64,000 nucleotides of DNA, from contig JACOST010000028.1 in the NCBI GenBank assembly GCA_016178705.1, forward strand, positions 130,951-194,950, in the 5' to 3' direction. The stretch comes from Deltaproteobacteria bacterium (lineage in GTDB: Bacteria; Desulfobacterota; Binatia; HRBIN30; JACQVA1). Each line of letters opens with the position of its first letter. Position 1 is the first letter of the stretch. Under the pieces are notes generated by a model. The model had not been told where the DNA came from. It did no database searches and was given only the letters and a program-made list of their open reading frames with translations. This document shows positions 274 through 9,649 of this stretch, piece after piece. The translations under genes were made by a program, and so were the position numbers.

Positions 274-759
274 CTACAGTTTGCCCAGAACCGACTCGGC
301 GCTCGATACGTTGAGCCCCGGACCGGGCTCGACGAGCAAGTCTTGCACGACGCCGTCGTTGACGATCATCGCGTAGCGTTGCGAACGCAGGCCCATGCCA
401 AACCCGCTGGCGTCGAGCGTGAGACCGAGCGCCTTGGTCAGATCGCCGTTACCGTCGGCGATCATGCGCACCTTGCCGGCCGCGTTGTTGGCCTTGCCCC
501 ACGCGCCCATGACGAAGGCGTCGTTGACCGACAGGCAGACGATGTCCTTCACGCCCTTGGCCTTGATCGCGTTGGTCTGCTCCAGGAATCCGGGCAGGTG
601 CTTCATCGAACACGTCGGGGTGAACGCGCCCGGCACGGCGAACACGACGACCTTCTTACCCTTGAAGATTTCATCGACCGTGACCGGCTTGGGGCCGCTG
701 TCCCCCATCTCCGCCAACTTCACATCGGTCGGCAAACGATCGCCCGCTTTGATGGCCAT
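274..759 (-). CDS. Prx5-type peroxiredoxin
   Basis: A 161-residue thiol peroxidase of the AhpC/TSA (redoxin) superfamily, expected to reduce H2O2 and organic peroxides in the cytoplasm. The peroxidatic Cys is C50 in the motif PGAFTPTCS, the form typical of the Prx5 group, and the C-terminal GPGLNVSSAE also fits this group. The full length matches single-domain family members without a fused glutaredoxin. The ATG start is preceded by AGGAGG at good spacing. It is divergent from the copper-monooxygenase-like gene at 898, so the 138-bp gap should hold both promoters. The active site is Cys, not selenocysteine. Confidence 0.93.
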   Translation of the reverse strand: MAIKAGDRLPTDVKLAEMGDSGPKPVTVDEIFKGKKVVVFAVPGAFTPTCSMKHLPGFLEQTNAIKAKGVKDIVCLSVNDAFVMGAWGKANNAAGKVRMIADGNGDLTKALGLTLDASGFGMGLRSQRYAMIVNDGVVQDLLVEPGPGLNVSSAESVLGKL

Positions 760-4824: not shown

Positions 4825-5028
4825 TCAGCGCGCTGGCTCTTCCGATTTGAACCCGACCTTGGTGTGCGTGCCGTCGCAGAACGGCTTGTTCGCCGACTGG
4901 CCGCAGCGACAGAGGTAGATCGGATCTTCGCTGAGTTTGAAATCGGCGCGCTTGGCGTCGACGAGCTGAATCGCGCCCTTCACTTCGTAGGGGCCGTCCT
5001 TGAGTGTTTTGATTCGGATGTCTGCCAT
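4825..5028 (-). CDS. CDGSH-type iron-sulfur protein
   Basis: A 67-residue protein with the three-Cys/one-His signature of CDGSH 2Fe-2S domains: C40-x-C42 in YLCRCG, then C51 and H55 in KPFCDGTH. The Ser of CDGSH is Thr here, which is common in prokaryotes. The family includes mitoNEET; the proteins are small cluster carriers or redox sensors. It is soluble and a complete single domain. It is divergent from the deiodinase-like selenoprotein, so the two share a 92-bp promoter region. ATG at 5028 is preceded by GGAGG. Confidence 0.93.
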   Translation of the reverse strand: MADIRIKTLKDGPYEVKGAIQLVDAKRADFKLSEDPIYLCRCGQSANKPFCDGTHTKVGFKSEEPAR

Positions 5029-5120
5029 CGATGCACCTCCGTGCGGGTAGTGGAATGGCTCCCTCAGTACTGCGGCCTCGTGTCTCGTGCAAGCCGGGGC
5101 ACCGTGATAGAACGCGGTGC

Positions 5121-5783
5121 ATGGACTTCGTCGAGATGCTGCAGAAGGTTCTGTCGCCGACCGACTTCGCCCGCATGCAAGCGTGGATGATGGGAATGGA
5201 GCCGGCGCGCCAAATGGAGATGATGCAGTTCATCACTGATCGCGAGACCCGCGCGCCCGCCATTGGCGATCCCGCGCCCGACTTCGAGTTGCCGCGGCTC
5301 GGCAGCGACGAGCGCGTACGGTTGTCGACCTTTCATGGCGACCAGCCGGTGGCGTTGATCTTCGGCAGCTTCACCTGACCGCCGTTTCGTGCCCAGGTTG
5401 GGCACCTCGAAGACCTGCATCGGCGCTTCGGCGATCGCATCGCCTTCTTCGTCGTCTACATTCGCGAGGCGCATCCGACCAACGAGTGGCAAGTCGAGAG
5501 CAATGAGCAGGAGCATGTACTGTTCGAGCAACCGACCACGCTCGACCAACGAACTGACGTGGCGCAAGCCTGTGCGCTGCGTTTGGACATCTCGATCCCG
5601 ACGCTCATCGACGACATGGAGAACTCAACCGATCTGAAGTACTACGCCTTGCCCGATCGCTTGTACCTGATTGATCGTGACGGACGCGTGGCCTACCGCG
5701 GCGCGCCCGGCCCGTTCGGATTCATCGCCGCCGAGTTGGAGAAAGCGATCGAGGAACTCCTCTCCGCATCGTCTCGACCGTGA
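5121..5783 (+). CDS. Iodothyronine-deiodinase-like selenoprotein (in-frame UGA = Sec86)
   Basis: One reading frame of 220 residues is interrupted only by TGA at 5376-5378. Read as selenocysteine (U86), the site is IFGSFTUPPFRAQ, matching the GSxTUPPF active site of animal iodothyronine deiodinases. Downstream, VVYIREAHPTNEW matches the deiodinase YIEEAHPSDGW block. MENS, RLYLIDRDG, YRGAPGPFGF and a C-terminal EL helix continue the family, so homology spans both sides of the TGA. A textbook bacterial SECIS hairpin follows the codon. The fold is thioredoxin-like: residues about 1-50 are helical, and the redoxin domain starts at PAPDFELPRL. There is no signal or membrane anchor, unlike the animal enzymes. 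The likely role is a thiol or selenol redox reaction, or reductive dehalogenation; the substrate is unknown. It overlaps DUF3995 by GTGA. No sel genes lie in this window. Confidence 0.9.
5386..5411 (+). promoter_or_regulatory. Bacterial SECIS element
   Basis: The hairpin starts 10 nt after the UGA at 5376-5378. The stem GTGCCC (5389-5394) pairs with GGGCAC (5400-5405) around the loop AGGTT, with outer TTC/GAA pairs (5386-5388 with 5409-5411) across a small bulge. The AGGU-type loop on a 6-bp stem close behind the UGA is the form recognised by SelB, as in E. coli fdhF. It should direct Sec-tRNA insertion. Confidence 0.85.
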
Positions 5784-6217
5784 GGACTCCGGTGACGCGC
5801 TTCATCGGCATTTTGACCGCTGGCGTTCTCTTCTCGCTGAGTCTTTTGCATGCGTACTGGGCCGCAGGCGGCCGATGGGGGACGGGTGTGACGATTCCGC
5901 TGCGCGACGGCAAGCCGCTGTTCGAGCCATCGCCGGCTGCAACGCTGCTCGTTGCGTTTCTACTCCTGTCTGCCGGCCTGGTGGTGTTGGGCCGACTCGG
6001 ATTCTGGGGTAGCGCGCTACCGCGCTGGCTATTCGTCGCTGGAAGCTGGACGCTCGTCGCCGTCTTCATCGGCCGCGTCGTCGGCGACTTCAGGTGGTTC
6101 GGTCTATTCAAGCCGACGAGCGCGAGCGCCTTCGCCTGGTGGGATACGTGGCTCTACGTGCCGCTCTGCTTCTTCCTCGCTCTCGGGTGCCTGATCGTCG
6201 CCTTGAGCGAACGATGA
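5780..6217 (+). CDS. DUF3995 family membrane protein
   Basis: 145 residues with four predicted membrane helices (about 8-26, 53-72, 83-100 and 124-141). The opening LLHAYWAAGGRWG is the typical DUF3995 motif, and WGTGVTIPLRDGKPLF supports the assignment. The GTG start overlaps the selenoprotein stop by four bases (GTGA), so translation is probably coupled. The stop in turn overlaps the start of the antitoxin-like gene (ATGA). The family's function is unknown. Coupling to a deiodinase-like protein raises the possibility of a membrane partner, which is inference only. Confidence 0.85.
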   Translation: MRTPVTRFIGILTAGVLFSLSLLHAYWAAGGRWGTGVTIPLRDGKPLFEPSPAATLLVAFLLLSAGLVVLGRLGFWGSALPRWLFVAGSWTLVAVFIGRVVGDFRWFGLFKPTSASAFAWWDTWLYVPLCFFLALGCLIVALSER

Positions 6218-6558
6218 AGGCAGTCGCACTGTCCGAACTCAGGTACGACCTTTCACGCTACCTGCGTCAGGCAGCGAAGGAAGAAATCGTGATCACCCGG
6301 CGCGGCAAGGCCGCCGGCATCTTGATCGGCTTCGACACCGACGATGACTGGTTCGACTACCGTCTCGAAAACGATCCGCGCTTCCTCGATCGCGCCGCTG
6401 CGGCCCGGTCCAGTCTGCGCAGCGGACGCGGTGTGCGGCTTGAGAATCTCGACGAAGGGGGCAGGTCCAGTTCCGCCGCGGCACCGGACCGCAGCCAGAG
6501 GCGCGTTTCGCCCAAGACCGCTACGTCACGTCGTGGCCCGCGGCCGGTAACTTCTTGA
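6214..6558 (+). CDS. Phd/YefM-type antitoxin-like protein with an odd C-terminal tail
   Basis: 114 residues. The first 80 are a Phd/YefM-type antitoxin fold: MKAVALSELRYDLSRYLRQ, then EEIVITRRGKAAGILIGF. Such proteins bind their own promoter through the N-terminus and neutralise a toxin through the C-terminus. The last 30 residues are Arg/Ser-rich and look unlike the family, as if the frame had slipped near residue 83. No RelE or PIN toxin follows. The ATG overlaps the DUF3995 stop by four bases. It is either an orphan antitoxin or the remnant of a toxin-antitoxin pair. Confidence 0.6.
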   Translation: MKAVALSELRYDLSRYLRQAAKEEIVITRRGKAAGILIGFDTDDDWFDYRLENDPRFLDRAAAARSSLRSGRGVRLENLDEGGRSSSAAAPDRSQRRVSPKTATSRRGPRPVTS

Positions 6559-8349: not shown

Positions 8350-9204
8350 TCACCTGAACAACACGCTGGCAAGCGCCCCGCGCGAGCGGTCGACGATCTC
8401 GTTGTCGGGTCCGAGCAGTTCGTAGATGTCGAGCATCGCTTTGCGGGCGGCGTCGTCGCGGAAGCGGCGGTCGCGTTTGACGATCTCCAGATACATGTCG
8501 AGCGCTTCGTCGTAGCGCGCCGCGGCCGCCAGAACCTGCGCCAAGGTGAAGCGGCTCTCCAGATCCTTGGGGTCGGCGTTGACCTTGATGCGCAGCGTTG
8601 CCTCGTCCGCACCGCCGACTTGCTGGATGCGAATCGCCGCCGCCAACCGGTCTGCGTCGTTGCGCGCCGGTGTGCCGGGCGCCACGCGATCGAGCAGCGC
8701 CAGCGCGTCGTCGTCTTGCTGTCGATCGGCGTGGATGTGGGCGAGTCCGACCAACGCGCGATCGCAGCGCGGGTCGAGTTCAAGGGCGCGATGAAACGCG
8801 GCCTCGGATTCGTCGAGTTGCCCGGCCGCTCGCAGCACGAGGGCTTCCGCAGCGAGTGTGTCCGCCGCGCTCGGCAGCACGCGCGCGAGGAAATCGCGCA
8901 CGCCGGCTTCGGGCAACGCGCCGACAAATTCGGACACCACTTGCCCGTCGCGCAGCCCGAGTACCATCGGAATGCTGTTGGCGCCGAAGCCCTGCGCCAG
9001 GCCGGGATTTTCGTCGACGTTCACCTTGGCGAGCACAAACGCTCCCGCGTGTTCTTCGGCGAGGCGTTCGAGCAGCGGCCCCAGCGTGCGGCACGGCCCG
9101 CACCATGGCGCCCAGAAGTCGATGACCACCGGCACTCGTTTCGAGCGCTCGACGACATCCGTTTCGAAACGGCTGTCCGTTGTATCGAAAACCCACTCGC
9201 TCAT
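8350..9204 (-). CDS. Thioredoxin-TPR co-chaperone, CnoX/YbbN-like
   Basis: 284 residues from the ATG at 9204; the open frame extends upstream without homology. The N-terminal thioredoxin domain has the active site WCGPC at residues 34-38 and a cis-Pro in SIPMVLGLRDG. The C-terminal half carries tetratricopeptide-like helices (LDESEAAFHRALELDP, YDEALDMYLEIVKRD). This arrangement is that of YbbN/CnoX, a holdase that protects proteins from oxidation and hands them to DnaK or GroEL. Unlike E. coli CnoX, both redox Cys are present, so it should be catalytic. Confidence 0.9.
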   Translation of the reverse strand: MSEWVFDTTDSRFETDVVERSKRVPVVIDFWAPWCGPCRTLGPLLERLAEEHAGAFVLAKVNVDENPGLAQGFGANSIPMVLGLRDGQVVSEFVGALPEAGVRDFLARVLPSAADTLAAEALVLRAAGQLDESEAAFHRALELDPRCDRALVGLAHIHADRQQDDDALALLDRVAPGTPARNDADRLAAAIRIQQVGGADEATLRIKVNADPKDLESRFTLAQVLAAAARYDEALDMYLEIVKRDRRFRDDAARKAMLDIYELLGPDNEIVDRSRGALASVLFR

Positions 9205-9313
9205 GCTGCGTCTCGTTGCACCTGCGGAATCTAGCTCACCAGCGCCGGAGAGAGAAGCCTGCGTTGACTCGTTCGAGCGCGCGGCATAGATCGCGAGCAC
9301 GGGTGAGGTGGCC

Positions 9314-9649
9314 ATGTCGGAACTCGCGAAGATGAACTGCGTCCCGTGCAAAGGCGGCGTGCCGCCGTTGAAGGGCGCCGAGCTGGAACCGTTGCGCGCG
9401 CAGATCGATTCGGACTGGACGGTGATCGATGAGCATCACTTGTCGCGTTTGTATCGCTTTAAGTCCTTCGCGCCGGCGCTCGAGTTCGTCAATCGCGTCG
9501 GCGCCATCGCCGAAGCGCAAAACCATCATCCCGATATCTACCTCGCGTGGGGCCGCGTGCGCATCGAGATCTGGACGCATAAGATTAACGGCTTGACCGA
9601 GAGTGACTTCATCTTCGCCGCGAAGTGCGACGCGGTGTACGCAGTCTAG
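9314..9649 (+). CDS. 4a-hydroxytetrahydrobiopterin dehydratase (PCD/DCoH family)
   Basis: 111 residues from the ATG at 9314; a GTG two codons upstream is possible. The PCD signature is intact: EAQNHHPDIYLAWGRV with the catalytic His pair at 71-72, then EIWTHKINGLTESDFIFAA with the third His at 89. The enzyme dehydrates 4a-hydroxytetrahydropterin after aromatic amino acid hydroxylation. No hydroxylase lies nearby, and in such genomes the family may serve molybdopterin metabolism instead. The 3' end overlaps the convergent nucleotidyltransferase gene by 41 bp. Confidence 0.9.
   Translation: MSELAKMNCVPCKGGVPPLKGAELEPLRAQIDSDWTVIDEHHLSRLYRFKSFAPALEFVNRVGAIAEAQNHHPDIYLAWGRVRIEIWTHKINGLTESDFIFAAKCDAVYAV

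Follow-up and report, generated by a model that had tools for sequence, protein, structure and literature searches.

Our results indicate that the gene at positions 5121 to 5783 of the window (the whole stretch of 64,000 nucleotides that was analyzed) is very probably a genuine selenoprotein gene, in which TGA 5376-5378 is decoded as selenocysteine (Sec). This conclusion from sequence is drawn because the TGA is kept in 76 of 81 related proteins (from the best 80 of 245 loci), the genome carries the Sec machinery, and a hairpin after the TGA covaries. We favor, with a probability of about 0.6, the reading that the product is a Sec/Cys thioredoxin-fold reductase of the bacterial deiodinase-like family, with SECIS-directed Sec, a small oxidizing substrate, and resolution by Cys151. 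Thyroid hormone is not expected to be the substrate. Genes of this kind have been known since 2005, and the identification of the window gene as a further member is well supported.

RESULTS

Structure of the gene and its family

The first-pass annotation had proposed that two short open frames are one gene of 220 residues interrupted by an in-frame TGA. Its coordinates are exact: with the TGA taken as Sec, positions 5121 to 5780 give 220 residues with one recoded codon (U86), followed downstream by YIREAHPTNEW (Table 1). The start codon is uncertain, as the open frame reaches back to ATG 5031; the Pfam matches start at residues 38 to 49, counted from ATG 5121. TGA is also used as a stop codon here. 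Both the deiodinase-like gene and the adjoining DUF3995 gene end in TGA, and therefore a general code change is not needed.

Table 1. Positions in the window of the deiodinase-like gene, its sites of interest, and its nearest neighbors
Feature	Position	Strand	Remarks
CDGSH iron-sulfur protein gene	4825..5028	-	67 residues; divergent, upstream; zf-CDGSH E value 2.7e-18
Deiodinase-like selenoprotein gene	5121..5783	+	220 codons; ATG 5121; stop TGA 5781-5783; internal TGA very probably read as Sec
Ser83-Phe84-Thr85 before Sec	5367..5375	+	Ser83 = DIO3 Ser167; Thr85 = Thr169; Phe84 at proximal Cys position
Sec86 codon, in-frame TGA in GSFTUPPF	5376..5378	+	TGA (76) or Cys codon (5) among 81 related proteins (best 80 of 245 loci)
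SECIS-like hairpin GTGCCCA-GGT-TGGGCAC	5389..5405	+	7 perfect pairs; loop GGT begins 18 nt past TGA
Tyr113, Glu116, His118, Pro119, Trp123	5457..5489	+	Deiodinase catalytic network and start of omega-loop
Cys151 (Sec +65)	5571..5573	+	Conserved Cys; candidate resolving cysteine
Pro178 replacing DIO3 Phe258	5652..5654	+	Pro in 86/86
DUF3995 membrane protein gene	5780..6217	+	E value 7.8e-29; GTG start overlaps stop of selenoprotein gene

The joined protein matches Pfam PF00837 (T4_deiodinase) with 98.4 bits and an E value of 5.1e-28, the gathering cut-off being 27 bits. The part after the TGA matches the same family by itself (68.6 bits, E value 6.3e-19), and the part before the TGA has a sole match, to AhpC-TSA, that lies under the cut-off (E value 0.0011). 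The joined protein is also above the cut-offs for AhpC-TSA (40.7 bits, E value 2.6e-10) and Redoxin (31 bits). The structure predicted by AlphaFold2, with 65 aligned family sequences (out of 88 aligned proteins) as input, has a mean pLDDT of 94.3 and a pTM of 0.89. The nearest solved structures, by both sequence and fold, are DIO3 and DIO2. They were the top structures in Foldseek (mouse DIO3, 4tr3, E value 2.1e-14; DIO2, 9h48, E value 5.0e-14), and structural alignment over 173 residues gave Z scores of 22.0 with 30% identity for DIO3 and 22.2 with 25% identity for DIO2; the structures ranked next (disulfide isomerase-like, ResA, and AhpE) have Z scores of about 18. A sequence profile placed DIO3 and DIO2 far ahead (E values 1.1e-36 and 2.1e-34) of the next structure (1.1e-06).

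Every one of the 65 aligned family members is recognized by the NCBIfam model NF038285 (deiodinase family protein) with an E value of 1e-5 or less. The window protein matches this same family model, but with 216.4 bits it is under the cut-off of 250 and covers just the C-terminal half (model positions 174-341). Among the proteins tested, the best fit to the model was a long planctomycete Cys form (L093; 493.4 bits, positions 6-346). The NCBIfam ResA model is matched by 23 of the 65 family members (E value of 1e-5 or less). In a tree of 87 rows and 173 columns, rooted on L028 and L029 and omitting L092, L112, and L114_1, DIO2 and DIO3 lie outside the set of bacterial UPPF proteins, but the intervening nodes are weakly supported (0.58 to 0.80).

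Relatives of the window gene

The window gene is the sole PF00837 copy found in its genome. At the order level, PF00837 genes occur in 3 of 15 genomes, one of which is that of the window; there are four such genes in all, each with one internal TGA. In a sample of the phylum, 14 of 395 genomes match PF00837 at an E value of 0.001, and 7 of 395 do so above the cut-off; of the nine matches above the cut-off, eight have one internal TGA and one (L039) has none. The weak matches L031 to L037 and the Sec-less L039 are outside every residue count given below.

When public genomes were scanned with an alignment limited to the region downstream of the Sec codon, 245 related places came up, of which the best 80 were kept. 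These include Planctomycetota, Acidobacteria, Chloroflexi, Actinobacteria, Myxococcota, Candidatus Binatia, Gammaproteobacteria, Armatimonadetes, Gemmatimonadota, and Poribacteria, among others. On the match strand, the best 80 of the 245 loci encode 81 proteins, which have TGA (76) or a Cys codon (5) at the site corresponding to position 86; the opposite strand of L056 carries one additional TGA gene. The query omits the Sec codon itself, but the ratio of 76 to 81 describes the nearest relatives only, because just the best 80 of 245 loci were kept and the seed rows of the query were TGA-form genes. The five Cys forms (L078, L093, L096, L118, and L119) read GNFTCGPF and are from planctomycetes (Pirellulaceae, Rhodopirellula, Tautonia, and Pirellula). 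From the 88-row alignment we left out L022, L023, L025, and L038, apparently the same contigs as L064, L066, L070, and L081.

The window protein was first described as soluble and unanchored, and by inspection it has no apparent signal peptide or membrane anchor; it is a thioredoxin-fold protein of probably cytosolic location. The description does not extend to its relatives, whose N-terminal parts, also by inspection, vary among short soluble, signal-peptide-like, and single or multiple hydrophobic forms and long planctomycete leaders. This variety suggests that the domain probably serves on either side of the membrane, and it is also compatible with a general redox role. Three genes, L024 979-2070 (+), L026 606-1664 (+), and L056 5413-6453 (-), have a hydrophobic-rich N-terminus of about 150 residues before the Sec domain (by inspection), and their match to NF038285 is confined to the C-terminal part. 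In the planctomycete-type forms L093 3989-5209 (+), L078, L103, L117, and L044, a long exported-looking N-terminus with EF-hand-like motifs (by inspection) precedes the Cys or Sec domain.

Sec machinery and the hairpin after the TGA

The genome examined (6.1 Mb in 33 contigs, 98% complete) contains every component that decoding of Sec would call for: one tRNA-Sec above the Rfam cut-off (74.7 bits; ARAGORN likewise reports tRNA-Sec, anticodon tca), selB (389 bits) with selA adjoining it (596.9 bits), and selD (406.9 bits), whose frame has an in-frame TGA of its own. Among the genomes of 50 of the 80 loci, selA was above the cut-off in 41 of 45 with the TGA form and in 2 of 5 with the Cys form. 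Of the remaining four TGA-form genomes, for which completeness is not given, three had no selA match and one had a match below the cut-off.

The hairpin at 5389-5405 is very probably a bacterial SECIS, as judged from the alignment of the family and not from the folding energy of the window. That energy did not differ significantly from synonymous shuffles (a fraction of 0.07 to 0.24, by length, was as low as observed or lower), and Rfam gave no match in positions 5100-5800 at E values up to 10. The hairpin score of the window was equalled by a fraction of 0.005 of 200 shuffles. For the 81 TGA genes, the top-scoring short hairpin at this site lay a mean of 1.37 standard deviations above synonymous shuffles; at eleven other positions within these genes, the means were 0.00 to 0.34. 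Individually, 24 of the 81 genes reached p<0.05. At the TGA, 76 of the 81 genes have a G as the first or second base of the loop; at the other positions, 27 to 53 of 74 to 81 do. The corresponding values for the Cys genes (n=5) were a mean of -0.59 and a loop G in one of five.

Covariation was scored in 79 sequences aligned without gaps, 78 of them distinct, with L112 and L114_1 left out of the 81. The covariation score was 0.422, compared with 0.160 in shuffles, and slid registers gave at most 0.208; 72.7% of cells were paired (55.9% in shuffles), and 94 cells had changed doubly (43.0 in shuffles). For each of these three measures, none of 500 shuffles was as high as observed. Two other measures did not exceed shuffles: pairs changed on both sides (6; 304 of 500 shuffles as high) and further pair types (23; 115 of 500 as high). 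The complete inner stem of five pairs was observed in 37 of 79 sequences; in 500 synonymous randomizations, which preserved both protein and codon usage, the mean was 2.5 and no run exceeded 8. Under this control, 53.3% of cells were paired, compared with 76.4% in the observed sequences. The relatedness of the sequences weakens each of these figures taken singly, and it is the figures combined that make a strong case.

A TGA that is a real stop or a random disruption, in a gene that is decaying, is highly improbable. A single genome alone cannot exclude a stop, but the same codon is TGA in 76 of 81 relatives (best 80 of 245 loci) with the frame conserved past it, and neither the Sec machinery of the genome nor a covarying hairpin is in keeping with decay. 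The Pfam match of the two sides when joined, together with the conserved TGA and this hairpin, led us to reject a random or disrupted gene.

Active site and conserved residues

Residues were counted in 86 bacterial proteins mapped on DIO3; L028 and L029, which are in the 88-row alignment, are outside these counts. The mapped residues are those of the hydrogen-bond network, omega-loop, and pocket of deiodinases, as given in the available sections of three papers (PMC11592359, PMC9141512, and PMC7506546). Tyr197, Glu200, His202, Pro203, Arg260, and Gly276 of DIO3 are identical in all 86 proteins, and Thr169 (84/86), Ser167 (80/86), Trp207 (79/86), and Arg225 (78/86, with Lys in the other 8) are also kept. 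In the window protein, the Ser, Thr, Sec, Tyr, Glu, and His of DIO3 positions 167, 169, 170, 197, 200, and 202 are all present. The first-pass annotation had matched GSFTUPPF and YIREAHPTNEW to animal deiodinases, and this kinship is supported.

Other positions differ from those of the animal enzymes. At the position of the proximal Cys168, the proteins have Tyr (77/86) or Phe (7/86; Phe84 in the window protein), and at that of the distal Cys239, 82 of 86 have Met, Ile, Leu, Phe, or Val (Ile159 in the window protein). At the His219 position, Pro is the commonest residue (64 of 86; Pro138 in the window protein), followed by His (13) and Ala (9). Arg275 is kept in 15 of 86; DIO2 itself has Lys there. 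All 86 proteins have Pro in place of Phe258, a residue that blocks or walls the substrate pocket; the Dio3 Phe258Pro variant has reduced activity, according to the available part of the report (PMC7506546).

With Phe84 and Ile159 at these positions, regeneration of the deiodinase type through a proximal or distal Cys is impossible in the window protein, which must therefore be regenerated differently. In the accessible text on human DIO1, the enzyme is regenerated via the proximal Cys124 and no role was found for the distal Cys194, so that a role of the distal Cys is doubtful even in DIO1 (PMC9141512); the proximal Cys is absent in DIO2 (PMC11592359, available text). The only other cysteine conserved across the 86-protein set is Cys151 or its neighbor, at +65 from Sec in 76 proteins and at +66 in 8, together 84 of 86 (L084 and L087 have no Cys there). 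It lies on a helix predicted at residues 141-154. We infer from this conservation that Cys151 may be the resolving residue. Position +3 from Sec is Phe in 85 of 88 aligned proteins, and a UxxC motif is not present.

Peroxiredoxins have the active-site motif PxxxT/SxxC, and thioredoxin-type proteins have CxxC. In the window protein, Ser83 fits the T/S position, and Leu79, seven residues before Sec86, is at the position of the peroxiredoxin Pro.

Gene neighborhood

The first-pass annotation had coupled the selenoprotein to a DUF3995 membrane protein. The genes do adjoin and overlap in the window, but the pairing was seen at no other locus among L001 to L119: a phmmer search with the single DUF3995 sequence (E value up to 1) matched only the window's own region (L001). 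A search with one sequence could miss a copy that has diverged, and some loci are cut short close to the gene, so that a copy beyond their ends would also escape it. The genome has one DUF3995 copy. A neighbor seen next to this one family member alone tells little about function, and we treat the gene as a local pairing and not as a functional partner. The ATG of a PhdYeFM antitoxin-domain gene, 6214-6558 (+), overlaps the DUF3995 stop codon. A Redoxin-family peroxiredoxin, 274-759 (-), and a thioredoxin-TPR protein, 8350-9351 (-), are both encoded less than 5 kb from the selenoprotein gene.

Open reading frames around 80 loci (the best 80 of 245) and in the window were clustered by blastp (E value 1e-6). 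Two clusters are the deiodinase-like gene itself, in sense and antisense frames. A conserved operon was not found, the largest other cluster listed spanning 9 of 81 sources (quinone oxidoreductase-like, by inspection), and none of the clusters listed, as named by inspection, points to a substrate.

DISCUSSION

How might this enzyme work? The sequence evidence supports a reading in which the ribosome decodes TGA 5376-5378 as Sec by means of the tRNA-Sec and SelB that the genome encodes, with the hairpin at 5389-5405 as the directing signal. For the reaction itself, we propose that the selenolate of Sec86 would attack a small oxidizing substrate in a pocket corresponding to that of deiodinases, presumably aided by Ser83, Thr85, Tyr113, Glu116, His118, and Arg180. 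To judge only from its conservation, Cys151 could resolve the oxidized selenium as a selenenyl sulfide, which thioredoxin or another thiol might in turn reduce.

The first-pass annotation had left the choice between a redox enzyme and a dehalogenase. We place the redox reading first on account of the conserved Cys at +65 or +66 and the change of Phe258 to Pro, and keep the dehalogenase as a rival. The family has kept the catalytic set of deiodinases but not the whole thyronine pocket. As substrate, we put a peroxide or some other small electrophile first; aromatic reductive dehalogenation is possible, and disulfide exchange comes last. Leu79 in place of the peroxiredoxin Pro counts against the peroxide reading, and the near-complete deiodinase network and omega-loop could favor dehalogenation over peroxide reduction.

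That the protein reductively dehalogenates small environmental aromatics (iodophenols, bromophenols, or halotyrosines), with deiodinase-like abstraction of the halogen by the selenolate, seems to us unlikely. Its attraction is that the Ser, Thr, Tyr, Glu, His, Pro, and Arg of the deiodinase site and the omega-loop Trp are kept and that deiodinases are clearly the nearest structures (Z of 22, next about 18). It is weakened by the changes in the thyronine pocket (Phe258 to Pro in 86/86, His219 kept in 13/86, and Arg275 kept in 15/86), by the reduced activity of Dio3 Phe258Pro in the part of PMC7506546 available, and by the neighbor clusters listed, among which inspection by eye revealed no dehalogenation gene. 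A selenium-based thiol-disulfide oxidoreductase for protein disulfides, resembling ResA or DsbE, appears less likely still. Structures of that type rank directly behind the deiodinases and 23 of 65 family members match the ResA model, but the site lacks UxxC (Phe at +3 in 85/88), and the window protein has no signal peptide by inspection. The Sec/Cys reductase of a small oxidant remains our preferred reading.

The window protein shows no basic difference from the bacterial deiodinase-like selenoproteins already described, with which it shares PF00837, the in-frame TGA, a SECIS after the TGA, and Cys homologs (available parts of PMC1088965 and PMC2398784). The 2005 Sargasso Sea study, in its accessible text, reports four Sec-containing deiodinase-like sequences with a bacterial SECIS and Cys homologs and proposes a redox function (PMC1088965). 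The 2008 Global Ocean Sampling table lists 22 Sec forms and 21 Cys homologs, and no motif is given in the part available (PMC2398784). Two reviews, in their accessible portions, give the family motif as UxxC (PMC13188914 and PMC9312934), whereas the present set is mostly UPPF; one of them describes the functions of such proteins as largely uncharacterized (PMC13188914, available text). The covarying SECIS, the Pro in place of Phe258, and the Cys at +65 or +66 were not found in the available parts of the published family descriptions compared. Nor did we find biochemistry of a bacterial member in the literature searched, most subscription journals being outside its scope.

With animal DIO1 to DIO3 (4tr3 and 9h48), the window protein shares the fold, the S-x-T-U-P-P-F site, and the Tyr/Glu/His/Pro/Arg network. 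In contrast to them, it has no proximal or distal Cys, has Pro for both Phe258 and His219, has the conserved Cys151 instead, and is without an apparent membrane anchor. It resembles peroxiredoxins and ResA-type thioredoxins in the thioredoxin fold and the AhpC-TSA match, but differs in having the deiodinase omega-loop motif and neither PxxxTxxC nor CxxC.

To our knowledge, the ancestral substrate of the thyroid-hormone deiodinases is not settled. A joint reading, which we offer as tentative, is that the UPPF family consists of Sec/Cys reductases of an environmental oxidant or halogenated aromatic and that animal deiodinases were retooled from it. If this is true, the animal enzymes would have exchanged the conserved Pro for the thyronine-pocket Phe and shifted the position of the helical resolving Cys, and the Pro/Phe difference would mark the step from a general redox enzyme to a hormone enzyme. 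With 245 related places in one pattern scan, the bacterial family is large; its nearest relatives mostly contain Sec (76/81, best 80 of 245 loci), and the few residues that set it apart from the animal enzymes can be named and tested. Without Sec decoding, such genes appear to be in two pieces, so that a soluble member for which there is a confidently predicted model and a SECIS supported by covariation should be useful for biochemistry.

A second Sec group occurs in the same phylum. L028, L029, and L030 have SSITUPAA or GSISUPAT at the site and a C-terminal extension, and their Pfam scores are just 30 to 32 bits; L028 and L029 form a UPA-site group, and L030 was not caught by the motif expression. 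In three genomes, a second deiodinase-like frame follows the Sec gene: L039 1222-1911 (+), L022 2-616 (-, cut by the contig end), and L023 848-1765 (-). By inspection, these second frames have no Sec or Cys at the active site, where they read GSSASVLRA, GKEGTFDDI, and GGSSEREMA, respectively. Animal deiodinases function as dimers, as stated in the available text of PMC11592359, and a frame of this kind, lacking both Sec and Cys, may be a dead partner subunit.
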